Under the pieces are notes generated by a model. It was not told where the DNA came from and ran no database searches. It was given only the letters and a program-made list of their open reading frames with translations. A stretch of 64,000 nt of DNA from Armatimonadota bacterium (lineage in GTDB: Bacteria > Armatimonadota > Fimbriimonadia > Fimbriimonadales > Fimbriimonadaceae): positions 434,001 through 498,000 of the forward strand of contig JAFLBD010000002.1 in assembly GCA_017303935.1 (NCBI GenBank), read 5' to 3'. Made by a program: the position numbers and the translations under genes. This document shows, piece after piece, positions 29,511-50,954 of this stretch. Within the stretch, counting starts at the first letter, position 1. The number at the start of each line of letters is the position of its first letter.

Positions 29511-31343
29511 TTAGCCTTCCATTTCGGCGAGCAACGGTTCAAGTTCTTGATTCTCACCAATGGCTTGCCGGATTTGAGCGGCTAGCCCTTGAGCTTCTTC
29601 CTTGCGGCCCAATCGAGCTGCAGCCAAGCCAAGGTTGATCGCGATCGGAAGCGACTGCGGCATAAACGTGATCGCATAGCGCATCGCGTTGTATTGCTCT
29701 TCGTGCTTGCCCTGCGGTGCGAGCGCATTGGCCAACTCCACAAACCCGATCTCGTTTCCAGGGAAGAGGTTGATCAGTCGTGTTGCGGCATCTTCAGCAT
29801 CTCGGTGGTCTCCAATTCGGTTCAATGCAGCCGCGTAAAGTGCCCACATCTTCCAGTAATCGGCGAGCCAGTTGCGCATCGGGCGAAGAATCTTGACCGC
29901 AGCTTCAAACTCCTCGGTTTGCATTTTCTCTTCAGCTTGCTGAACAGATTCAACGCGCTTCGGTTGCTCCAATTCGACGAGCCAAGCAAGCACCTGGGCG
30001 CGAGTGTTTGGATCAGGGTTTGCGCCCAAAACATCCCGGAGAACCTTTGGCACTTCAAAACTGCGACCAGCTCCCTGTAGGGTCTGCGCATATTCGATTT
30101 GAGTCTGAACATCGGTCGGATTTTCATCCAACAGATCTTCGTACAGGTCCATCGCCTTGTCCCATTCTTGGAGGCTAGCCAGCGCCGGAGCATAGAATCG
30201 CTTGATGACATTCTTGTCTTCCGACTTTTCCAGACCTTCTTCGAAAACGCGAAGCGCTTCAGCAGTGTTTTGAACCTGCATCAAGCTTGCGCCGAGGTTA
30301 GCCCACGCGTGGCTGTTGCTTGGGTTGCTGTCCACGATGGATCGCCAGAGTGGTGGTACTTCGTGGGCGCGTTCCTGCTGGCTGATAACCTGCGCGAGGA
30401 ATCCCATCGAAGGCTTGTCGTCAGGTTCCATCTCGACCGCCTTTCGGAAATTCTGCTCGGCATTGGCGAGCATTCCGAGAGATTGTTGCGCGATGCCGAT
30501 ACGGGTGATGAGCGCCGGTTCTTTGTCGTCGATCTTCAAAGCGGCTTCGAGAACTTCGATCGCTTCATTGAATCGTGAGGTCGACTGATACAACTCGGCG
30601 AGGACAGCTGGTCCGCGAACATCGTCGTTGACGGTTTCGTTCGCCTTTTTCAAGGAAGCTTCGATGTCGTTTGGATCACCGATGCGCAAGTTCATCGCTG
30701 CTCGGCAGAGCTGCAATAGGGTGGCGTATGGAGCCTCCCAATCGTTGTCCAAGCTGATGGCTTCGTTCAGCGCATTGTAGGCGAAAGAAGGATTGAAATC
30801 AGGGATGACTTGGCCTTGAGTCTTGTCGATGTATTGGAGCGCATCGTAACCTTCCAAGAACCGAACGAATGCTCGGCTGTTGGTCGTGCCAAACAGGTCT
30901 TCGTCGGTCGAGGCTTCGCTTGGCAACGGAGTGCCGCCTCTTTGTGCGATCTCTTCGACGAGCTTCCGCATCGATGGGAAGACATTCTCTTCGGTGAAAT
31001 CGAAGGTCTCTTCGTAGAGCGGCTTCTCATCATCTCGCGAGAAAACTCGAACGGTGAGTTTGAGGTTGCCATTTTCTTCAACCAGCAAACCATCGACGGC
31101 GACATTCGCTTCCGCCTGACCAAAGAGCTGCTTGACAAATTCTGGTTCCGACAAGGATTCGGCCGGGTTGGCATTCGCAAATCGTGGTGGGTTGCTTTCA
31201 TCTATCCGAACGAGATAGTTGACAGAGTGGACCTCCGACCCGGTGCGCGCGCGTACGATCTCGGCGGCGAAGTTTGCAAATTGCCGAGCAAGGGTAGCAC
31301 GTGTGTTTGGTCCAGCATTAAACGGCAGAACAGCAACGCTCAT
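29511..31343 (-). CDS. TolB-like domain plus tetratricopeptide-repeat protein
   Basis: 610 aa without a signal peptide. Residues 1-120 begin VAVLPFNAGPNTRATLARQF, like the TolB-type N-terminal module found in front of TPRs in adenylate-cyclase and CadC-like proteins. From about residue 190 onward the sequence is a chain of TPR-type helix pairs (for example AEQNFRKAVEMEPDDKPSMG; HAWANLGASLMQVQNTAEAL). It is probably a scaffold or sensor of unknown partner. It lies between tdh and kbl on the same strand, but a terminator cuts it off from kbl. Confidence 0.75.
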   Translation of the reverse strand: MSVAVLPFNAGPNTRATLARQFANFAAEIVRARTGSEVHSVNYLVRIDESNPPRFANANPAESLSEPEFVKQLFGQAEANVAVDGLLVEENGNLKLTVRVFSRDDEKPLYEETFDFTEENVFPSMRKLVEEIAQRGGTPLPSEASTDEDLFGTTNSRAFVRFLEGYDALQYIDKTQGQVIPDFNPSFAYNALNEAISLDNDWEAPYATLLQLCRAAMNLRIGDPNDIEASLKKANETVNDDVRGPAVLAELYQSTSRFNEAIEVLEAALKIDDKEPALITRIGIAQQSLGMLANAEQNFRKAVEMEPDDKPSMGFLAQVISQQERAHEVPPLWRSIVDSNPSNSHAWANLGASLMQVQNTAEALRVFEEGLEKSEDKNVIKRFYAPALASLQEWDKAMDLYEDLLDENPTDVQTQIEYAQTLQGAGRSFEVPKVLRDVLGANPDPNTRAQVLAWLVELEQPKRVESVQQAEEKMQTEEFEAAVKILRPMRNWLADYWKMWALYAAALNRIGDHRDAEDAATRLINLFPGNEIGFVELANALAPQGKHEEQYNAMRYAITFMPQSLPIAINLGLAAARLGRKEEAQGLAAQIRQAIGENQELEPLLAEMEG

Positions 31344-31404
31344 AACTCAGGAATTGTACCTGCCAGCGCGCCTATCAGCATCAGACCTAGTGCGAATACT
31401 GGGG

Positions 31405-32445
31405 CTAGTTTCGGGCCGATGAAAAATCAAGCACGACTTTGCCCGCTTCGCCTCGCTCCAAAATCTCCATGGCGTGGTTCACATCTCGGAAATCCATCTT
31501 GTGGGTGACCACCGCGGACACGTCGAGATTCTTGTTTTGCAGTAGGTCGATCATCTGATCCCAAGTCTCCCAAATCTTGCGTCCGATGATGCCATTTACT
31601 TTTAGTCCTCGCATGATCATAGCGTTCAACTCGATCTGCTGAACGCTCTTGGGATACAGCCCTAGCAAGCTGATGCGTCCGCCAGGCCGAGTGTGCCGGA
31701 TTGCGAGCGGAAGCGCAGATTCGTGGCCGCTCATTTCGAGGCTACCGTCCACACCATCCGGTGCGATGCGAGAAAGCACTGCATCGGCATCTTCTTGGGT
31801 TGGGTCGATGATCACATCGGCTCCTAACTTTTCTGCAAGCTGTTTTCGATACGGCCGCACTTCGGTGACAATCACCTTTTCGGCGCCCCACGCCTTAGCA
31901 ACAGCGATGCTGAAAAGCCCGATCGGTCCCATCCCGGTGATTAGCAATGTCTGACCAGCCACTGGGCCGTCGGCAACCGTGTGCACCGCGTTTCCGAGCG
32001 CGTCCAGCATGGATGCCACTTCATGAGGGACAACACGCGGCGTGGTGCGTGCATTTTGCGCGGGCATCACGGCCCAGCCGCCAAATCCGCCATCCACATC
32101 AATCCCGAGGAGCCGAGTGTTCGCACAGACGTGGCCTTGCCCCATTTGGCACTGGCGGCAGGTCCCACAAACAATGTGCGATTCGCTGCTGATGAACTCG
32201 CCAATACGACTTGGATCGACGCCTTCTCCGACTTCAATGATCTCGCCGCAGAATTCGTGCCCGATGATTCGAGGAGGGTGGATTCGGGATTGCGAGAAGG
32301 CATCCCATTGGTGGATGTGGAGGTCGGTGCCACAAATAGAACCTCCTAAAATCTCGACTTTGACGTGCCCTGGTTTGATCTTTGGAGTGTCGACTTCGAC
32401 AATGTCAACGCCAGGGGCAGGCTGCATCTTTGCAACGGCAAACAC
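31405..32445 (-). CDS. tdh: L-threonine 3-dehydrogenase
   Basis: An NAD-dependent zinc dehydrogenase that oxidises threonine to 2-amino-3-ketobutyrate, the substrate of Kbl. 346 aa MDR-family protein with catalytic-zinc residues in SICGTDLHIHQWD and GHEFCGEI, the structural four-Cys loop (CGTCRQCQMGQGHVC), and the Rossmann glycines in LITGMGPIGLFS. The length and the GTDLHI form fit threonine dehydrogenase, and kbl nearby supports the call. It follows the DprA-like gene by 36 nt. Confidence 0.9.
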   Translation of the reverse strand: MFAVAKMQPAPGVDIVEVDTPKIKPGHVKVEILGGSICGTDLHIHQWDAFSQSRIHPPRIIGHEFCGEIIEVGEGVDPSRIGEFISSESHIVCGTCRQCQMGQGHVCANTRLLGIDVDGGFGGWAVMPAQNARTTPRVVPHEVASMLDALGNAVHTVADGPVAGQTLLITGMGPIGLFSIAVAKAWGAEKVIVTEVRPYRKQLAEKLGADVIIDPTQEDADAVLSRIAPDGVDGSLEMSGHESALPLAIRHTRPGGRISLLGLYPKSVQQIELNAMIMRGLKVNGIIGRKIWETWDQMIDLLQNKNLDVSAVVTHKMDFRDVNHAMEILERGEAGKVVLDFSSARN

Positions 32446-32481
32446 GACCTGATGGTACCGCCGAATGACGGATGAATTGGG

Positions 32482-33552
32482 TCATGCGCCAGCAGCAGAA
32501 AACGGCAATTGGGGCTGGATGCCTAACTCGGCCTCGCGGATAGCATCGGCAAGACCCGTGTCACGCACCGCATGATCCATGCCGAAATTGCCAAATCCGA
32601 GCGCTCTAAATGCGCGATAAGCCATGTTGTCGGGCTCTTCGGCGACGAGCAACGGGCAGAGCTTGCGCTGGTGGGCAGATAACGCACCGTGCCATGTGCC
32701 ACCGACCTTAAATCGAGGTTGGACCACTAGTGTGCACTCGGCTGCGGCATAAATCAGCTGGTTGCGCTCCATCGCGGCGGAGGTGCTAAATGAAGCGCCA
32801 GACGGGCGCAGAGATAACACATTATCGGCAGACACTGCGCCGTGGCGGGCGATGAAGGGCACCTGATCAGGCTCCGCGTCATGCGTATCCGAACGCACAT
32901 GCGTAGAAATGGCACAGCAAACCGCGCGTAATCCATGAAACCCGCACATCGGCACGATATTCAGCACTGGCGCGCCGAGCAGCCGTGCGGTTTTGGCCGC
33001 CGCCGCATCCACCCCGGAAGCCCCGCCCGTCACAATGCCGTAGCCCAGCGAGGTCGCTTGACGCACGGCATCGGACACCAGGCGCAAAGAATCTGCTGAA
33101 GGGCAACGCGACCCTACGACACCAAACCACCGTTTCGGCGAGCGACCCATGTGATACGCAGGACCGCCAGCGCCAACAGCCAGCGTCGGCGCACCCCACA
33201 AGACCAATGGTGCGCTAGTGCCCATGCTGGTGAGCCACCGGGCAGGATATGCAGAGTCACCGACCATGCAGATTGAGTCCGCGGCGTGTTTCATGAAATC
33301 CTGGCACCTAGATTGCGCGCCCAAAATGGCGGCCTCCGTATCGAAGCCGTGCTGACGCAGCACGCCACGCGCCGCCTTCACAAATGCGTCGAAGTCACCC
33401 TGGGAGCAAGAGTCTCCCGAGAGCACAGGCAGATGGACACGCAGGCAATGGAGCACCTGATGGGCGCGATGCCGCGGCGCCCTGGCAAAGCCGTCGCCAG
33501 CATCCAAATACAAGCACGCCAGCAATGCGCGCATCCATACTGCATCACTCAT
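32482..33552 (-). CDS. DprA/Smf-like SLOG-fold protein, probably acquired
   Basis: About 356 aa from the ATG at 33552; the frame stays open to 33630, and another ATG lies six codons upstream. A DprA-type Rossmann core is visible: FGVVGSRCPSADSL, GYGIVTGGASGVDAAAAKTA, FSTSAAMERNQLIYAAAECT and VVQPRFKVGGTWHGALSAHQ. DprA binds ssDNA and loads RecA during transformation; relatives occur in other nucleotide-sensing roles. The core is diverged, and neither a winged-helix tail nor a clear N-terminal SAM domain is seen. Codon use differs from neighbours, and an AT-rich upstream patch (33553-33600) adds to the foreign look. Confidence 0.7.
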   Translation of the reverse strand: MSDAVWMRALLACLYLDAGDGFARAPRHRAHQVLHCLRVHLPVLSGDSCSQGDFDAFVKAARGVLRQHGFDTEAAILGAQSRCQDFMKHAADSICMVGDSAYPARWLTSMGTSAPLVLWGAPTLAVGAGGPAYHMGRSPKRWFGVVGSRCPSADSLRLVSDAVRQATSLGYGIVTGGASGVDAAAAKTARLLGAPVLNIVPMCGFHGLRAVCCAISTHVRSDTHDAEPDQVPFIARHGAVSADNVLSLRPSGASFSTSAAMERNQLIYAAAECTLVVQPRFKVGGTWHGALSAHQRKLCPLLVAEEPDNMAYRAFRALGFGNFGMDHAVRDTGLADAIREAELGIQPQLPFSAAGA

Positions 33553-33644
33553 CACCAACCATAATAACATATAACTAACAACAATACATATCCATCTACC
33601 ACAAGCGAAGGCACCTTGGGTGTATAACACTAGCCAGCCTCATC

Positions 33645-36600
33645 ATGCAAAAGCACCCGACCTTGACGTTAAACCGCATCGCCCGAATGCACCAGTTGCA
33701 AATCAAAGAATGCCTGATTGTCGCACGGCAACCCCTTTCGATTGAGTTTTGCGACGTTGAGCATCCAGACGAAAAATCGGCGCGCAAACACGGTCCTTGG
33801 GTGCCTGTTCAGGCAGGACATAGCTATGGGCCAGCGTATCGCACCTTCTGGTTCCGCATCACCGGCACAGTGCCTAAAGATTGGGCGGGAAAGGAAGTCG
33901 GAATGATGGCCGAGATTGGCGGCGAGCGCACGGTATGGATCGGCAATACACCTGAACGCGGCATCGATGGCCCACACGCGGTGTACCGGCTCGCTGATGA
34001 AGCAAAAGGTGGGGAGAAAATCGATCTCGCGATCCAGGTGTATTCCGGGAATCCAAGCGTGAGGCTGATCGGAGACACGCCACCACGTAAAGAACTCACC
34101 GAGACGGTGAAATCCGCCGAACTCGTGCTCGTGGACACTCACCTCACACAGCTTCACTTTGATATCGAATTCACGCTGAGTCTGATGAAGACCTTGCCGG
34201 AGAACGACCCGGCTTACTCAACCCTCCTGCGAGCGCTAAACAGTGTTTGCAACGTATTCGATCCCAGCCAACGAGACACGATTCGCGCCGCCCGCAAGCT
34301 CATCAAAGACGCCTTGGGGAGCCTGAATTCCGAGCTCAAACACCAGATCACCGCGGTCGGACACGCTCACCTGGACACGGCATGGCTCTGGCCGCTCCAC
34401 ATCACGCATCTGAAGATGGCGCACACCACGGCGAACCAGCTCTATCTGCTCGAGAGGTACCCCGATTACGTGTTTGTCCACTCTCAGGCAAGTCAATACG
34501 AATGGCTCGAAGACGAGAATCCCGCACTGTTTGAGCGTCTAAAGTCCGCGATTGATGCCAAACGATGGGAAGTCGTAGGGAGCATGTGGGTCGAAGCGGA
34601 TTGCAACATCACCGGCGGCGAGAGCTTGATCCGGCAATTCCTCTATGGCCGGCAATACTTCGAAGAAAAGTTGGGCGTCGTCACCGACGACATGTGGCTG
34701 CCAGACGTTTTCGGCTATGCCGCCGCATTGCCGCAGATTCTGAAAAAATTCGGCATCAAGTATTTCTTGACGCAAAAAATCAGCTGGAATCAGACCAACA
34801 AGTTCCCACACAACACCTTCCTTTGGAAGGGGATCGACGGCACCTCGATCTGGTCCCATTTCCCACCCGCAGACACGTATGTCGGTAACGGCACACCACA
34901 AGAAATAATTGAGAGTGTCCGAAAGCACAAGGACCAAGCCCGAAGCGACCAATCACTGTACATTTTCGGGCATGGTGATGGCGGCGGAGGCCCAACCGAA
35001 GAACACTTGGAGCTGCTCAAGCGCGGCCGAACTGCGCCGTATATGCCAGAAATCGAGCTCGGCAAACAAGCGATACAGTTCTTCCGCGAGGCGAAAGCGC
35101 GGAGCCGCGACCTCACCACTTGGTCGGGAGAGTTGTATCTCGAAATGCACCGAGGTACCTACACCAGTCAAGCGAACAACAAGAAGTGGAATCGACAATC
35201 CGAATTCCTGATGCGCGACGCAGAATGGCTTTGGTGCTTTGCAGGTGATCTGCCCAAGAAGTACCCACAGGCAGAAATCGAAAGGCTGTGGAAGCTTGTG
35301 CTACTCAATCAATTCCACGACATCATCCCGGGCTCTTCCGTTCGAGAAGTTTACGAAGACTCGGATCGCGATTACGCTGACATCCTCACCGGAGGGCAGG
35401 CGCTCGTTGATCAGGCACTACAAACGATTGGTGAAAAGCTTGGCGCGGGGCCGGATTCAGTGGCTCTGTTTGCCAACAGCTCCGTCCCGAGCCAAGCGTC
35501 GATTCCGTGGGAGAAAGATGAAGCCCCAACGAGTATTCAGGTTGGCAACTCGATCTATCCAGTGCAATTGATCGAGCAGTTTGACGAGCGTCAATTGATC
35601 TTCGAAACCCCAGAAGCAGCGATGGGGTCCGTTGCCGTTGGCCAGTTCTCCGACACGCCGATCACGACACGTGCTCGGCTCAAAGTTCGAGAACGAAAAA
35701 TCGAGAATGGGGAGTGGTCGGTCCGGTTTGACACTAACGGAAATATCACCAGCATCACCGCGATTGATGACTCGAATACGGAGTTCGTGGAGGCTGACAA
35801 ACTCGCCAACGTGTTCCAAATCTTCGACGATAGACCGAATTTCTGGGGCGCATGGGATGTCGATCCGTGGACCATGGAGACCGAACGGTCTTTGTTCAAG
35901 GCGGAGTCTGTCGAAGTCGTCGAACGCGGTCCGGTCCGGGTCGCAATTGAAGTCGTACGGCGTATCAGCGATGTCAGCTGGATTCGACAACGCATCAGCC
36001 TCGGGCCAACACCGGGGATTCGGTTTGATACGGAGATCGAATGGAGAGAAGCGCACAAACTGCTCAAGGTGGCGTTCCCACTCAATGTCAACGCCAACCG
36101 TGCCACCTACGAAATTCAGTTTGGGCATGTCGAAAGACCAACCCATCAAAACACCAGCTGGGATACCGCTCGGTTCGAAGTGCCTGCCCAAAAATGGGTA
36201 GATGTGAGCCAAGGTGACCTCGGTGTGGCTCTGCTTAATGACTCCAAGTACGGATTTGACTGTGTTGGATCAACGCTGAGAATGTCGCTCCTGCGCGCCC
36301 CAAAGGCTCCAGATCCAGAGTGCGATATGGGCCGGCACCGGTTCAGCTATGTGCTCCTGCCACACTATGATGGTCTTCAGCAAAGCGACGTCGTTGCTGC
36401 GGCATACGCGCTGAATTCGCCGCTTCGACACAAGGCACTGAATCCAAGCCAAGGTGTGGCCGACCGACTGCCGAAACTGGTGGGCATCGACACACGAAAT
36501 TTGATCATCGAGACGGTCAAGAAGGCGGAGCGATCCAATCACATCATCGTCCGGCTGTACGAATGCCACAACTCGCGCGGAGTGGCAAGTCTGACGTGCG

Positions 36601-36731
36601 CACGGCCGATCCAGCGGGCGTTCATAGTGAACTTGGAAGAGCGCGAACCCCGCGAAATTGAGCTTGTGGACGGCATGGTGCCGATCAGCTACCTGCCGTT
36701 TGAGATCATCACTTTGATGCTTGAGGTTTGA
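33645..36731 (+). CDS. Alpha-mannosidase (GH38)
   Basis: 1028 aa from the ATG at 33645; a second ATG at 33687 (MHQLQIKE) may be the native start, as no ribosome site favours either. GH38 retaining alpha-mannosidase, with the N-terminal catalytic domain starting AVGHAHLDTAWLWPL (zinc His and Asp), nucleophile D319 in EADCNITGGES and the WLPDVFGYAAALPQIL loop, and then the C-terminal beta domains. No signal peptide is seen, so it is likely cytosolic, degrading imported mannosides. Its stop lies in a hairpin shared with the convergent ABC gene. Confidence 0.92.
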   Translation: MQKHPTLTLNRIARMHQLQIKECLIVARQPLSIEFCDVEHPDEKSARKHGPWVPVQAGHSYGPAYRTFWFRITGTVPKDWAGKEVGMMAEIGGERTVWIGNTPERGIDGPHAVYRLADEAKGGEKIDLAIQVYSGNPSVRLIGDTPPRKELTETVKSAELVLVDTHLTQLHFDIEFTLSLMKTLPENDPAYSTLLRALNSVCNVFDPSQRDTIRAARKLIKDALGSLNSELKHQITAVGHAHLDTAWLWPLHITHLKMAHTTANQLYLLERYPDYVFVHSQASQYEWLEDENPALFERLKSAIDAKRWEVVGSMWVEADCNITGGESLIRQFLYGRQYFEEKLGVVTDDMWLPDVFGYAAALPQILKKFGIKYFLTQKISWNQTNKFPHNTFLWKGIDGTSIWSHFPPADTYVGNGTPQEIIESVRKHKDQARSDQSLYIFGHGDGGGGPTEEHLELLKRGRTAPYMPEIELGKQAIQFFREAKARSRDLTTWSGELYLEMHRGTYTSQANNKKWNRQSEFLMRDAEWLWCFAGDLPKKYPQAEIERLWKLVLLNQFHDIIPGSSVREVYEDSDRDYADILTGGQALVDQALQTIGEKLGAGPDSVALFANSSVPSQASIPWEKDEAPTSIQVGNSIYPVQLIEQFDERQLIFETPEAAMGSVAVGQFSDTPITTRARLKVRERKIENGEWSVRFDTNGNITSITAIDDSNTEFVEADKLANVFQIFDDRPNFWGAWDVDPWTMETERSLFKAESVEVVERGPVRVAIEVVRRISDVSWIRQRISLGPTPGIRFDTEIEWREAHKLLKVAFPLNVNANRATYEIQFGHVERPTHQNTSWDTARFEVPAQKWVDVSQGDLGVALLNDSKYGFDCVGSTLRMSLLRAPKAPDPECDMGRHRFSYVLLPHYDGLQQSDVVAAAYALNSPLRHKALNPSQGVADRLPKLVGIDTRNLIIETVKKAERSNHIIVRLYECHNSRGVASLTCARPIQRAFIVNLEEREPREIELVDGMVPISYLPFEIITLMLEV

Positions 36732-40239: not shown

Positions 40240-40677
40240 TTACCAGCCTCGGCCGCCGCCGCCGCCACGACCATTGTCGCGACCTCGGCCACCGCCTCCG
40301 CCTCCGCGTCCGCCGCCGCCACCAAAGCCGCCGCGTCCACCGCCGCCGCCATCACGGCCACCGCCGCCTCCGCCAAAGCCGCCGCGTCCACCGCCGCCGC
40401 CTCCGCCGAAGCCACCGCGTCCACCACCGCCGCCACCGGCTGGTCGATCTTCGCGTGGTCGAGCTTCGTCAACTTTGATTGGTCGGCCCTTCAAAACGGA
40501 ACCGTCCATCGCTTCAATAGCGGCTGCCAATTGATCTTCTGCGATGTCGATGAATGCAATACCGCGATCGGCCATCACGCGGGCGTTGCTGGGTTGATAG
40601 TCTCCGAAGTGCATCAACACTTCTTCTTCCGTTGCCGAGTAGGCAAGGTTTCCGATAAATAGGCGCTTTGTGCTCAT
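40240..40677 (-). CDS. Glycine-rich RRM RNA-binding protein
   Basis: 145 aa. An RRM domain at residues 1-75 has RNP2 RLFIGNLAY and an RNP1-like RGIAFIDI. It is followed by a 65-residue tail of Gly with Arg and Phe (RGG/FGG-type repeats). This is the architecture of bacterial and plant cold-inducible RNA-binding proteins, expected to chaperone RNA and perhaps to condense. The tail is coded by simple GCC/GCG-type repeats (about 40250-40440). It is monocistronic, with a strong promoter about 160 nt upstream and a strong terminator. Confidence 0.9.
   Translation of the reverse strand: MSTKRLFIGNLAYSATEEEVLMHFGDYQPSNARVMADRGIAFIDIAEDQLAAAIEAMDGSVLKGRPIKVDEARPREDRPAGGGGGGRGGFGGGGGGGRGGFGGGGGGRDGGGGGRGGFGGGGGRGGGGGGRGRDNGRGGGGGRGW
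40252..40440. repeat. Low-complexity GC-rich triplet repeats coding the Gly/Arg tail
   Basis: An imperfect run of GCC/CCG-type triplets forms the 3' half of the RRM gene. Slippage here would change the number of Gly residues without shifting the frame when it occurs in threes. The opposite strand reads as an open polyproline frame by chance. Confidence 0.8.
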
Positions 40678-42056: not shown

Positions 42057-43454
42057 ATGGATTATCGACGCCAGTACATCAAACAACTTTTTGAACTTGC
42101 CCCCGGCACAGAAGTTTCGGCCTACGGATGGGTGAAAACCCGTCGTGATAGCAAGGAAGTGACCTTCGTCCAACTGAATGACGGGTCTTGCTTCCAAGAC
42201 CTTCAGGTCGTGATCCCGAATGGTGCCGTTTCAGACGAGATCGTCAAGAAGATGACGACGGGTGCAAGTGTTTGCCTGTCTGGAAAGATCGTCGAGAGCC
42301 CAGCCGCCGGGCAAGCGGTCGAACTGCTTTGTAGCTCGGCAGAGCTGTTTGGAGAAGCCGATCCAGCCACCTATCCGCTGCAGAAGAAGGGCGCGACGAT
42401 GGAGTTCTTGCGCGAAATTGCGCACCTGCGTGGTCGAGGAAACACGTTTGGCGCGGTGTACCGCGTGCGAGCAAGAGCAAGCTACGCCATTCACAAGTTC
42501 TTCTCAGAGCGAGGCTTTCACAACATCCACACGCCGATCATTACCGCTAGCGATTGCGAAGGTGCCGGTGCAATGTTTGCCGTCACGACTTTGCTCGAGC
42601 AAGGACATCCTGATTTTCCAGCCAAGCTCAAGCTAACCGATTACAAAGAAGACTTCTTTGGTAAGCCTTCTTACCTCACGGTGAGCGGCCAGCTTGAAGC
42701 GGAAACGATGGCGCTGGGCATGACAAACGTGTACACGTTTGGACCGACTTTCCGCGCTGAAAACAGTTCAACCAGCCGGCACTTGGCCGAGTTTTGGATG
42801 ATCGAACCGGAGATGGCGTTCTGCGATTTGGAAGGCGATATGAACCTCGCCGAAGAGTTTCTGAAGACGGTCATCGCCGACATCATGGACCACTGTTCTG
42901 CCGATCTCGACTTCTTCAACAAGCGGATCGAACCAGAATTGCTCTCCACGCTCAACCACGTGGTGGAATCCGGTTTCGAGCGAATGACCTACACCGAAGC
43001 GGTGAAGCATTTGCAGGCAAGTGGTGAGAACTTCGAGTTCCCGGTGGAGTGGGGCACTGACCTTCAGAGTGAGCACGAACGATGGCTCACCGAAGTCAAA
43101 GTCGGTCGCCCAGTGATTCTCACCGACTATCCAAAGGACATCAAAGCGTTTTATATGCGCCTGAACGATGACAACAAGACCGTCCGCGCAATGGACGTGT
43201 TGGCGCCGCGCATTGGCGAGATCATCGGGGGTTCGCAGCGCGAGGACCGACTGGACGTCTTGGAGCGCAGAATCTTGGAAATGGGACTTCCTCTCGAAGC
43301 GTACTGGTGGTACCTCGACTTGCGCCGATTTGGATCGGTGCCACACGCCGGATTTGGGCTTGGGTTCGAGCGGCTGCTCATGTATGTGACAGGAATGAAA
43401 AATATCCGCGACGTGATTCCGTACCACCGCGTTCCGGGATCGGCGGAGTTCTAA
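42057..43454 (+). CDS. asnS: Asparaginyl-tRNA synthetase
   Basis: Charges tRNA-Asn with asparagine. 465 aa class II synthetase with an N-terminal OB-fold anticodon-binding domain ([20 protein letters not shown]), motif 2 ([21 protein letters not shown]) and motif 3 ([12 protein letters not shown]). The AsnRS identity is supported by the insert pattern [20 protein letters not shown] and by [12 protein letters not shown]. The length is normal. Confidence 0.94.
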
Positions 43455-43457
43455 AAT

Positions 43458-44927
43458 TTGGCTGAAAGGCTCCTCGATAAATCGGCTTTTCTGAATGGAC
43501 TGACGTGCCCGAAGAAACTCTGGCTGAGCATTCATTCGCCTGAAATTGCGGAGCCGATCAGCGAAGGAGGCCGATTCCGGATGGAGATCGGTCGCGAAGT
43601 CGGCGAACTCGCGCGACTTCGATTCCCGCAGGGTGCTTTTCTGCAGGGGCTTTACCTAGAGGATTGCCCCGGCGACGTGGCGTTTGAGGTCACGTTTCAA
43701 TCTGAGAACTTTCGCGCGCGTACCGATATCTTGCGGAGAAATGGCACCGGTTGGGATCTCATAGAAGTCAAGTCTTCGAAGCGAGAATCCACCTCACACC
43801 TGTATGACCTCGCGTTCCAGGCGATGGTGATGAAGCAGGCTGGCATTGAGCCAATTCGCTGCTTGTTACTGCTGGTTAATGGCGATTATGTGCTGCCGGA
43901 ATCGGGCAAGATCGACCCGGAACAGTTCTTTACTCAGGTTGACTTGACTGAAGAAGTTCTTGCTGCTCAGCCGAAGGTCGAGGTGCTCGCGAACCAATTT
44001 CATCATCTGATTCAGTTGGAACATAAGGAGCCGCCAACGCCCGACTTTTTCGCCGCTTGCAAGGAATGTAGCTTCAAGAGCTATTGCTCGGAGTCCTGGC
44101 CAGAGCATCCGGTTTCGGTTTATCTTTCGCGGAGCAAGAAGCAGATCGAGAATTTTCGATCCAAGGGGATCATTGATTTTCGGGACGTGCCACAAGGCGA
44201 ATTGACTACATCCATCCAAAGGAGCTGGCACCGCGTGCTCACGAACGATTCGATGGAAGTCGACCCCGACCTGGCCGATAGGATCGCGAACCTCGAGTAT
44301 CCAGTGTACTGCATCGACTTCGAGACGGTAGGCCACTTTTTGCCTTGGATCGCGGCAGTTCCTTCGTACCAAAAGTTGCCTGTCCAGTTTTCTTGTCACC
44401 GCATCAATGCGCCCTACATCAATGGCGTTCATCCAACGGTAGACCATTTTGAATACATCTTCCGAGGGGATGGCGACCCAAGAGAGGAATTCGTCAAAGC
44501 GCTTTCGGACGTACTCGGAGATCACGGTTCGGTGATGCATTACTCTGCCGCCGAAAAAACCGAGTTGAGAAACTTAGAGACGGCTGAAATTCCTGGAGCG
44601 AAGGAGCTATCCGATCGACTCATACCAAGATTCGTGGACCTCGAAAAGTGGATCAAGGACTACTTCTGGCATCCAGGGCTCGCGGCAAAGTCTTCGATCA
44701 AGAAAGTGCTACCAATCTTAGCTCCCGATCTTAGTTACGACAGCCTGGAAATCAATAGCGGTGAGACAGCAATGGTCCGGTATCAACGAGCGATCACGGG
44801 CAAGTTGCCAACTGCGCAAGCCGAAAAGACCTTCCAAGACCTTCTGGAATACTGCAAGCTTGATACTTGGGCGATGGTCCGGATCATATGGGCGTTGCAA
44901 GACGCGCTGGCTGGAAAGAAGTTCTAG
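43458..44927 (+). CDS. DUF2779 protein: Fe-S PD-(D/E)XK nuclease plus DEDD-type exonuclease motifs
   Basis: 489 aa from a TTG with a GGAG site 8 nt before it. The N-terminal half has a Cas4/AddB-like plan: C17 (LTCPKKLW), nuclease residues D90 (RTDIL) and E103-x-K105 (EVKSSK), and C201, C204 and C210 (CKECSFKSYC), which with C17 could hold a 4Fe-4S cluster. The C-terminal half is DUF2779 with D287/E289 (CIDFETVGHF) and Y465-x3-D469 (YCKLDT), the first and third motifs of DEDD exonucleases. It is probably a DNA- or RNA-processing enzyme; its process is unknown. The neighbours asnS and deoC give no hint. Confidence 0.8.
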   Translation: MAERLLDKSAFLNGLTCPKKLWLSIHSPEIAEPISEGGRFRMEIGREVGELARLRFPQGAFLQGLYLEDCPGDVAFEVTFQSENFRARTDILRRNGTGWDLIEVKSSKRESTSHLYDLAFQAMVMKQAGIEPIRCLLLLVNGDYVLPESGKIDPEQFFTQVDLTEEVLAAQPKVEVLANQFHHLIQLEHKEPPTPDFFAACKECSFKSYCSESWPEHPVSVYLSRSKKQIENFRSKGIIDFRDVPQGELTTSIQRSWHRVLTNDSMEVDPDLADRIANLEYPVYCIDFETVGHFLPWIAAVPSYQKLPVQFSCHRINAPYINGVHPTVDHFEYIFRGDGDPREEFVKALSDVLGDHGSVMHYSAAEKTELRNLETAEIPGAKELSDRLIPRFVDLEKWIKDYFWHPGLAAKSSIKKVLPILAPDLSYDSLEINSGETAMVRYQRAITGKLPTAQAEKTFQDLLEYCKLDTWAMVRIIWALQDALAGKKF

Positions 44928-48623: not shown

Positions 48624-50954
48624 ATGACCGTCAAAGAGATTTTTGAGAATTTGGATTACGGCACCGCGCCCGAGTCTCCTGATTTGGCCAAAGAATGGAT
48701 TTCAAAGCATGGGCCAGTCATGCCGCAATACATCGGTGGCGAGTGGGTGGTCGCAGATGAAAGCTTTGACTCTCTCTGCCCAGCGACAACCGAGCCGTTG
48801 ACCAAGATCTCCCAAGGTTCCGACGCAAACGTAGATGCTGCAGTGAAGGCCGCTCGAAAGGCATCAGTCAGTTGGCAAAAACTCAGCGGTTTCGAGCGAG
48901 CGAGATTTCTCTATGCTATCGCGCGGCAGATTCAAAAGCACTCGCGGCTATTTTCCGTTCTGGAGTCTCTCGACAATGGCAAACCGATCCGCGAAACGAG
49001 GGATTTAGATATACCGCTTGTCATTCGCCATTTCTATGCTCATGCAGGATGGGCTCAGCTTCTGGACCGCGAGTTCCCAGAATACGAAAGCGTCGGAGTT
49101 TGCGGTCAGATCATTCCGTGGAATTTTCCGCTCTTGATGCTATCTTGGAAGATCGCGCCGGCTCTGGCAGCAGGGAACACGGTGGTGTTGAAGCCTGCCG
49201 AATTCACCTCATTGACCGCGATTCTCTTTGCCGAGATTTGCGATTCGGTTGGACTGCCAAAGGGCGTCGTCAACATCGTGACGGGTGACGGCCGTACAGG
49301 CAAGGCGATCGTTGAGCATCCCGACATCGACAAAGTGGCCTTCACCGGCAGCACCGAAGTGGGACGTATTTTGCGCAAGGCTACGGCCGGCTCCGGCAAG
49401 AAGTTGAGCCTGGAACTCGGCGGGAAATCGCCGTTCATCGTGTTTGCAGATGCTGACTTGGATGGTGCGGTCGAAGGCTTGGTTGACGCGATTTGGTTCA
49501 ACCAAGGTCAAGTGTGCTGCGCAGGTTCGCGACTATTGGTTCAAGAAGGAATTGCGGACAAGTTCCACAAGAAGGTCAAGGCTCGAATGGAGCAGTTGCG
49601 GCTCGGACATCCGCTGGAAAAAGGGATCGACATCGGAGCTGTGGTCGATAAAGTGCAGTTGGAGCGGATTGCTGGGCTCGTCAAGCAAGGCGTAGAGCAA
49701 GGCGCCGAACTGCACCAACCCTCAACGCAATGCCCGACTAGCGGGTGGTTCTATCCGCCGACTTTGCTCACAAATGTGAGTCCGTCGAACATCGTTGCGC
49801 AGGAAGAGATTTTTGGACCAGTGCTGGTGAGCATGACCTTCCGAACTCATGCCGAAGCGATCGCCCTCGCCAACAACACGGTTTACGGATTGGCATCCAG
49901 CGTTTGGACGGAAAACCTCAACTTGGCACACGATGTTGCCTCAAAGATCAAGGCGGGCACCGTTTGGGTGAACTGCTCAAACCAGTTTGACGCCAACTGT
50001 GGATTTGGCGGTTATCGCGAATCTGGATACGGACGTGAAGGCGGCAAAGAAGGGTTATACGAATACCTCAAGCCAAAGTCGATGTTCGGCTCACCAATTC
50101 AATCGAAGCCGGTGCAACCGATCTCCACAAGCGAGAAAATCGACCGCACGCACAAGAACTATGTCGGTGGCAAACAAGCGCGTCCCGACGGCGGATACAG
50201 CCTGACCATCAAAACCAAATCAGGATTTGAAGAGGTTGGGCGCGGCAATCGAAAAGATATCCGCAATGCAGTCGAAGCCGCGGAATCTGCCCTTTCCGCC
50301 TGGAGTAACCTCGCCGGTCACAGTCGAGCGCAAATCATTTATTACATCGCAGAGAATTTGGCCGCCGAGCGACAGCTTTTTGTCAACGCTCTCGGAGGTG
50401 ACTCCGCCGCCGAGGAAGAGTTTGATGCTAGCCTCGATCGATGCTTCTATTACGCGGCTTGGGCTGACAAATACGATGGCGCAGTTCACAACACCCCTAT
50501 GCGAGCCGTGAACTACACGCGGAATGAAGCCATCGGTTCCTGCGGCGTGGTTTGCCCCGAAGAACGGCCACTGCTCGGATTCTTGAGCACCGTTCTCCCG
50601 CTAGTGAGTATGGGGAATACCGTTGTCGCAATTCCAAGTGAGTCGAATCCAATCGTCGCTTGTGAGCTTTATCGCGTGTTTGATCAGTGCGATCTTCCAG
50701 GCGGTGTGATCAACATTGTGACTGGGCTCCACTCGGAGGTCGTCCCGAGCCTCGCGGAGCACGACACGCTGCAATGCGTTTGGCATTTTGGCGACGCTGA
50801 AACGGGCAAGGCGATTGAACTTGCGAGTATCGGCAACCTCAAACAGACTTGGTGCAGCTTGGGCAAATCGGTGGATTGGATGGCCGCCCCGAATCCTGAG
50901 TTCTTGAGACGAGCCGTTCAAGTCAAAAACATCTGGGTTCCTTACGGAGCTTAA
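48624..50954 (+). CDS. Two-domain aldehyde dehydrogenase (ALDH16-like)
   Basis: 776 aa. Residues 1-500 form a full ALDH with general base E264 (LELGGKSP) and catalytic C298 (QVCCAGSR). From about 510 a second ALDH-like domain follows, which keeps GVINIVTG but has SLGKSVDW in place of the base motif and lacks a catalytic Cys. The order catalytic domain then degenerate domain is that of the ALDH16 family. It oxidises aldehydes with NAD(P)+; the natural substrate is unknown. Upstream, a 9-nt unit (GGAACCAAC) occurs twice just before the ATG. Confidence 0.88.
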   Translation: MTVKEIFENLDYGTAPESPDLAKEWISKHGPVMPQYIGGEWVVADESFDSLCPATTEPLTKISQGSDANVDAAVKAARKASVSWQKLSGFERARFLYAIARQIQKHSRLFSVLESLDNGKPIRETRDLDIPLVIRHFYAHAGWAQLLDREFPEYESVGVCGQIIPWNFPLLMLSWKIAPALAAGNTVVLKPAEFTSLTAILFAEICDSVGLPKGVVNIVTGDGRTGKAIVEHPDIDKVAFTGSTEVGRILRKATAGSGKKLSLELGGKSPFIVFADADLDGAVEGLVDAIWFNQGQVCCAGSRLLVQEGIADKFHKKVKARMEQLRLGHPLEKGIDIGAVVDKVQLERIAGLVKQGVEQGAELHQPSTQCPTSGWFYPPTLLTNVSPSNIVAQEEIFGPVLVSMTFRTHAEAIALANNTVYGLASSVWTENLNLAHDVASKIKAGTVWVNCSNQFDANCGFGGYRESGYGREGGKEGLYEYLKPKSMFGSPIQSKPVQPISTSEKIDRTHKNYVGGKQARPDGGYSLTIKTKSGFEEVGRGNRKDIRNAVEAAESALSAWSNLAGHSRAQIIYYIAENLAAERQLFVNALGGDSAAEEEFDASLDRCFYYAAWADKYDGAVHNTPMRAVNYTRNEAIGSCGVVCPEERPLLGFLSTVLPLVSMGNTVVAIPSESNPIVACELYRVFDQCDLPGGVINIVTGLHSEVVPSLAEHDTLQCVWHFGDAETGKAIELASIGNLKQTWCSLGKSVDWMAAPNPEFLRRAVQVKNIWVPYGA

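Follow-up and report, generated by a model that had tools for sequence, protein, structure and literature searches.

A DUF2779-family protein joining a Cas4-like domain and a DEDDy exonuclease domain in an Armatimonadota genome

The gene described here lies in a 64,000-nt stretch of an Armatimonadota contig, referred to below as the window, where it directly follows the gene for asparaginyl-tRNA synthetase. The open reading frame extends exactly from a TTG codon at 43458 to a stop codon ending at 44927 on the forward strand and encodes 489 amino acids.

42057..43454, forward strand: asnS, asparaginyl-tRNA synthetase (tRNA-synt_2, 1.5e-63), ending 3 nt upstream of the next gene
43458..44927, forward strand: gene for a Cas4-like/DEDDy fusion protein of the DUF2779 family (TTG start, stop codon included, 489 aa)

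A GGAG sequence is located about 9 nt upstream of the TTG at 43458, and no promoter-like site was found between asnS and the DUF2779 gene in a scan that was at chance level overall. The two genes are probably carried on one transcript. The downstream gene, encoding a DeoC-type aldolase, is on the opposite strand. No Rfam families or tRNAs were detected within the 64,000-nt window. A family scan of ten window genes between 36744 and 50951, two of which matched no family, gave no helicase, in agreement with the sequence-only reading, which had seen no helicase nearby. Elsewhere in the window, a 776-aa protein (48624-50954, forward strand) carries two aldehyde dehydrogenase stretches in a single chain, and a small RRM protein (40240-40677, reverse strand) has a long Gly/Arg-rich tail coded by a GC-rich imperfect repeat (40278-40438).

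The domains and conserved residues of the DUF2779 protein are distributed as follows, with counts referring to the 92 rows of the alignment named A3.

43458..44105, forward strand: N-terminal Cas4-like PD-(D/E)XK domain, residues 1-216 (Pfam Cas_Cas4, VIA, Foldseek)
43506..43508, forward strand: C17, first Fe-S cysteine (C in 86/92)
43725..43727, forward strand: D90, aspartate of the PD-(D/E)XK site (92/92)
43764..43772, forward strand: E103-V-K105, (D/E)XK motif (E103 and K105 each 92/92)
43818..43820, forward strand: Q121, RecB-family Q motif (Q in 74/92, T in 18/92)
44058..44087, forward strand: C201-x2-C204-x5-C210, the other Fe-S cysteines (84/92, 89/92 and 78/92)
44295..44918, forward strand: C-terminal RNase H-like DEDDy exonuclease domain, residues 280-487 (Pfam DUF2779, VIA)
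44316..44324, forward strand: D287/E289, exonuclease motif I (DFET; 92/92)
44553..44555, forward strand: E366, exonuclease motif II acid at a helix start (91/92; helix 365-375)
44637..44639, forward strand: D394, conserved Asp after strand 392-394 (92/92)
44850..44864, forward strand: Y465-x3-D469, exonuclease motif III of the DEDDy type (91/92 each)

Profile searches assigned residues 16-211 to Pfam Cas_Cas4 (1.9e-9; 38.3 bits against a gathering score of 22.7) and residues 284-413 to Pfam DUF2779 (PF11074; 9.7e-20; 71.6 bits against 23.3). Two NCBIfam models stayed below threshold. The TM0106 family (TIGR03491, COG2251) resembles the window protein in combining Cas4-like and RNase H-like domains in one chain, but the window protein scores 36.5 bits against its cut-off of 97.45; the cas4 equivalog (TIGR00372) gave 30.6 bits against 65. 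With PADLOC 2.0.0, Cas4 models were matched and no other listed defence protein. A Cas4 structure was reached by sequence profile alone only at E 0.46. Across A3, profile matches to DUF2779 were obtained in 92/92 rows, to Cas_Cas4 in 38/92 and to RNase_H_2 in 31/92.

Alignment A3 comprises the window protein, 75 genome loci and 16 viral-contig loci. It was drawn from 102 loci tried (L059-L160), of which L106 was dropped because it had no called match; L073, L074, L076, L078 and L080 were omitted by choice as divergent or split, and L079, L083, L091 and L151 (length) and L122 (edge) by script. The sequence-only reading had numbered C17, D90, E103, K105, C201, C204, C210, D287, E289, Y465 and D469, and all of these residues occupy those positions. 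Its assignment of the four cysteines with D90/E103/K105 to the Cas4 plan, and of D287/E289 and Y465-x3-D469 to two DEDD motifs, is borne out by their conservation among the DUF2779 homologues: the acids and the lysine of the first site are present in all rows, motif I is likewise invariant, and the only exception at Y465/D469 is one row truncated at that point. S413 and K415 are also invariant (92/92).

The motif II acid, overlooked in that reading, is E366, since this residue stands at a helix start, aligns with the motif II Asp that is invariant in PF13482 proteins from the same phylum in a weak profile comparison (E 0.1), and falls at a position of the motif II helix where D and E are the sole residues according to the available part of Majorek et al. 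2014 (PMC3985635). The same weak alignment (E 0.1) places D287/E289 and D469 opposite motifs I and III of PF13482. With E366 as motif II and a Yx3D motif III, the domain is of the DEDDy type, and the complete set of DxE, motif II acid and Yx3D (D287/E289, E366, Y465/D469) is intact in 90/92 rows.

The cysteines vary more. All four are present in 72/92 rows by strict column and in 75/92 by a looser pattern; at least one is gone in 20/92 rows (strict column), and two or more are missing in some rows, with both catalytic sets retained. Because cysteines are lost where the catalytic residues remain, both active sites are more constrained than the Fe-S cluster, which is a probable feature of the N-terminal domain, as judged from its cysteines, and would appear dispensable in parts of the DUF2779 family. 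Among Cas4 proteins, Cys mutations in Pcal_0546 left DNA cleavage intact and cluster disruption inactivated SSO0001, as far as the available parts of the respective reports describe them. Loci L018, L019, L070 and L071 have lost most Fe-S cysteines and retain both active sites; a type I restriction methylase gene adjoins the L019 gene (observed in L176).

An AlphaFold2 model built on A3 reached a pLDDT of 95.2 and a pTM of 0.91, with no segment below 50. In a Foldseek search against the PDB, the top six rows were all Cas4 chains (8d3l twice, 7mi4, 4r5q, 7mi5 and 4ic1), with E values from 3.7e-6 (8d3l_I) to 4.8e-4, followed by human MGME1 and then RecE at E 7.9e-3. Using VIA-align, residues 1-216 were superposed on Cas4 7mi4_A with Z 15.4 and rmsd 3.3 over 186 aligned residues, and residues 280-487 on 8g99_A with Z 16.0 and rmsd 2.5 over 175. 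The latter segment matched DNA polymerase alpha and archaeal family B polymerases with Z 14-16, over polymerase residues that we take to be the exonuclease domain. In family B polymerases, the exonuclease motifs are DxE and Yx3D, and the motif II acid is Asp. The C-terminal domain thus resembles them in fold and in both of these motifs; it differs in its Glu at motif II, and no polymerase is present here. We infer the metal-site geometry of both centres. By computation, the chain consists of an N-terminal domain of the Cas4/RecB type and, at the C-terminus, a DEDDy domain of the proofreading type known from family B polymerases, both with catalytic residues under near-absolute constraint. Family profiles, conservation and the high-confidence model agree on the two nuclease centres in one chain that had been proposed from the sequence.

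The architecture itself is known. In the available part of Majorek et al. 2014 (PMC3985635), DUF2779 is placed in the exonuclease clade of RNase H-like proteins as family F.17, 3'-5' exonuclease activity is presumed for it, and a fusion to DUF83 (Cas4) is recorded. The window protein shares with F.17, as described there, both the C-terminal domain and the DUF83 (Cas4-like) partner, and shows no architectural difference from it. It is one more member of a known, under-studied family and, since the domain pair was described in 2014 (PMC3985635), not a newly seen combination; what is new here is E366 as motif II, the full-chain model and the neighbour statistics. In the literature searched, with subscription papers and preprints outside its scope, neither a published activity of DUF2779-Cas4 proteins nor a paper joining Cas4-like, RNase H and anti-phage was found. 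The word "uncharacterised", used in the sequence-only reading, can thus be kept for the activity, but not for the domain pair. In the portion of PathFams available, DUF2779 ranks among the domains with the highest scores for association with pathogens and for low lineage specificity, with its function given as unknown, and a mutant table for Mycoplasma bovis contains a transposon mutant in a DUF2779 gene.

The likeness to Cas4 (PF01930; Pcal_0546, I-C Cas4) extends over the PD-(D/E)XK fold, the four cysteines and their C-terminal spacing. The C-x2-C-x5-C spacing is that of C200/C203/C209 in Pcal_0546, and the D-to-E distance is 13 in both proteins; Pcal_0546 is described, in the source text available, as a crystallised Cas4 with 5'-3' ssDNA exonuclease activity. 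With such a profile and fold, the protein might be taken for a CRISPR adaptation nuclease with true Cas4 function. That reading is improbable in the extreme, given the additional C-terminal exonuclease domain, the score below the cas4 equivalog cut-off (30.6 against 65) and the lack of Cas1: PF01867 gave 0 matches in the whole source genome (99.21% complete), with control matches in 9/14 genomes. A CRISPR role was rejected on the absence of Cas1 from the source genome, in line with the earlier remark that no CRISPR lies nearby.

The position of the gene, on the same strand as asnS at a distance of 3 nt, could also point to an RNA- or tRNA-processing enzyme coupled to asnS, as DEDD domains can act on RNA. 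We consider this very unlikely, because the gene occurs at 0/17 asnS loci of relatives, its neighbours vary among relatives, and Cas4 is a DNA nuclease family. The search of these loci (tblastn, 1e-5) extended no further than 1.5 kb to either side and would overlook a copy lying farther away; the window neighbours deoC and MFS were also not found beside asnS, and the search is therefore no proof of an empty site. On the 0/17 count, the asnS operon was rejected as a functional link. The sequence-only reading had ended on a "DNA or RNA" "processing system". Its DNA half is favoured, both domains being closest to DNA-acting folds, and the RNA half is left without specific support; the notion of a system is unsupported for the window, as there is no conserved partner gene in it and the link to asnS was seen in none of the 17 relatives.

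The family is patchily distributed. It was found in 15/41 relatives and in 43/291 genomes of Armatimonadota, whereas the related PF13482 was present in 55/61. Plasmids contributed 30 records with a DUF2779 protein, all below 60% identity, and viral contigs 22 DUF2779 loci, while a tblastn search of 50,697 phage records gave no match. From species genomes, at least 541 confirmed loci were obtained, of which 80 were kept; archaea, Patescibacteria and many phyla are among the genome loci listed. In the source genome, the gene is single copy, with a GC content of 0.525 against 0.540 (sd 0.018) and a GC3 of 0.618 against 0.604, native values that do not point to a recent import.

A quick, unbootstrapped tree was built from 92 rows, namely the phylum loci, those on plasmids and alternate loci of the genome set. 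In this tree, 42/44 phylum rows fall in one starred set, so most copies appear to be old residents of the phylum; L175 and L176 group with other phyla. A recent import from another phylum is unsupported, considering the native composition and this single set. The window protein is placed beside the copies of G116, G130, G113 and G084 (SH-aLRT 91), a group drawn from different genera and from one further family within the phylum, and the copies of its congeners G001, G003 and G004 make up a separate starred group apart from it. The copies of three congeners are only 31-33% identical to the window protein, whereas asnS of one such congener is 85% identical to that of the window. At locus L169 of that congener, the DUF2779 gene sits behind the mannosidase corresponding to window positions 33645-36731, which lies about 6.7 kb from the DUF2779 gene in the window; the flanking block 29511-36731 is otherwise collinear. 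We read this as a single gene frequently moved or lost inside the phylum, and an old duplication with differential loss may be an alternative to transfer inside the phylum.

These data bear on the reading of the protein as a host nuclease for DNA repair or replication ends, comparable to a helicase-free RecB/AddB end processor and with no link to defence. The resemblance of both domains to repair and proofreading nucleases, the native composition and the 42/44 phylum rows in one starred set argue for it. The patchiness even inside family and genus, congener copies that are not the nearest relatives of the window copy, and the presence on plasmids (30 records) and in viral contigs argue against it, and we place this reading somewhat below even odds.

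For the neighbour analysis, 154 of 159 loci were used, with L058 and L106 lacking a called match and L081-L083 dropped as repeats of L192, L186 and L180. In this set, one viral contig carries both L063 and L077, which are counted as two loci, and genomes G116 and G159 each give several loci. Neighbour genes were called by longest ORF, and for this reason some neighbours are wrong in GC-rich loci. Within the phylum, 27/46 copies start no more than 50 nt after a same-strand upstream gene; the upstream gene varies between most phylum loci, and no neighbour gene common to most of them was seen.

WYL-cluster genes occur in 24/154 loci (19/76 genome, 4/10 plasmid, 1/22 viral and 0/46 window-phylum loci), and an adjacent WYL gene was observed 11 times against 4.6 expected when positions were shuffled inside each locus (p 0.002). 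Restriction-type clusters are present in 19/154 loci. Taken together, a WYL, restriction-type or twin-AAA gene is found in 43/154 loci as a raw count, leaving 111/154 with none; in the window phylum, 41/46 loci have none. At several plasmid loci, AAA/STAND-type ATPases, a GHKL ATPase, PLD proteins, helicases and WYL regulators adjoin the gene, and other plasmid loci have none of these neighbours. A PADLOC scan of neighbours, with random samples of 90/244 near genes and 90/305 far genes, the latter a poor control, gave a weak excess (126 near against 72 far families matched); among the matches listed, WYL accounted for 4 near against 1 far, of 90 proteins. On the viral contig of L063 and L077, which is 55 kb long and carries two DUF2779 genes, SNF2/ResIII helicase and N6/N4 methylase genes lie beside one of them.

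A parallel is offered by the UvrD-Cas4 fusions, which, according to the available part of Hudaiberdiev et al. 2017 (PMC5704561), have WYL and type III restriction genes as neighbours and are read there as defence components; no mention of the DUF2779 fusion was found in that part. Both are non-CRISPR Cas4-like nucleases near WYL or restriction genes in some lineages, but the partner there is a helicase, as far as that text describes it, and here a DEDDy exonuclease. The protein could accordingly be pictured as an accessory anti-phage or anti-plasmid nuclease, a helicase-free counterpart of those fusions. The frequency of adjacent WYL genes above chance, the occurrence of restriction, ATPase and PLD genes near plasmid-borne and genomic copies, the 43/154 raw count and the parallel contexts of UvrD-Cas4 (PMC5704561, available part) are consistent with this picture; the majority of loci without such genes, including 41/46 in the window phylum, where WYL is absent (0/46), is not. 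Support for defence comes from other phyla and not from this window, and we hold this reading as possible but tentative.

Considering all evidence, the best explanation is a helicase-free DNA exonuclease with two sites, accessory in DNA-end processing or defence, to which we give a probability of roughly 0.7. That the protein is a DNA nuclease is the most secure part of this explanation and very likely in its own right; the defence part is considerably more doubtful. The enzyme would cleave DNA in a metal-dependent manner at two separate active sites of one chain and would have no motor. Its Cas4 domain may cut or chew ssDNA, probably from 5' ends or internally, and its DEDDy domain would take nucleotides off 3' ends by a two-metal mechanism; acting together in this way, the two could shorten both strands at a DNA end, or the enzyme could degrade DNA opened by another enzyme. 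Its single gene seems to be frequently lost or relocated, the enzyme is presumably accessory and non-essential, and its expression may occur by read-through from the gene ahead, here asnS. With less certainty, destruction of incoming DNA, in company with WYL-regulated and restriction-type genes, may be its task in some lineages. The family is widespread and carries two conserved nuclease sites in a chain of about 490 residues; motor-free degradation of both strands starting at an end, if true, would be an unusual mode of DNA processing. The scattered spread and the WYL neighbours make a defence role directly testable.

A broader idea, which we regard as unlikely, is that DUF2779-Cas4 forms an interchangeable module against foreign DNA in bacteria, archaea, plasmids and viruses, in which one strand would be opened or resected by Cas4 and the second by the DEDDy domain; WYL proteins would regulate the module in certain lineages, and in others, this one included, it would stand alone downstream of host genes. 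In one genome, the DUF2779 protein has a C-terminal 5'-nucleotidase fusion (L091:9989-12406, forward strand; PF06189, 5.1e-133), and the fused enzyme could strip released nucleotides. A 5'-nucleotidase is also annotated beside DUF2779 at a Sphingobium plasmid locus (L057). Another DUF2779 protein (L079:8657-11476, forward strand) carries an N-terminal extension of about 450 residues with no Pfam match at 0.01.
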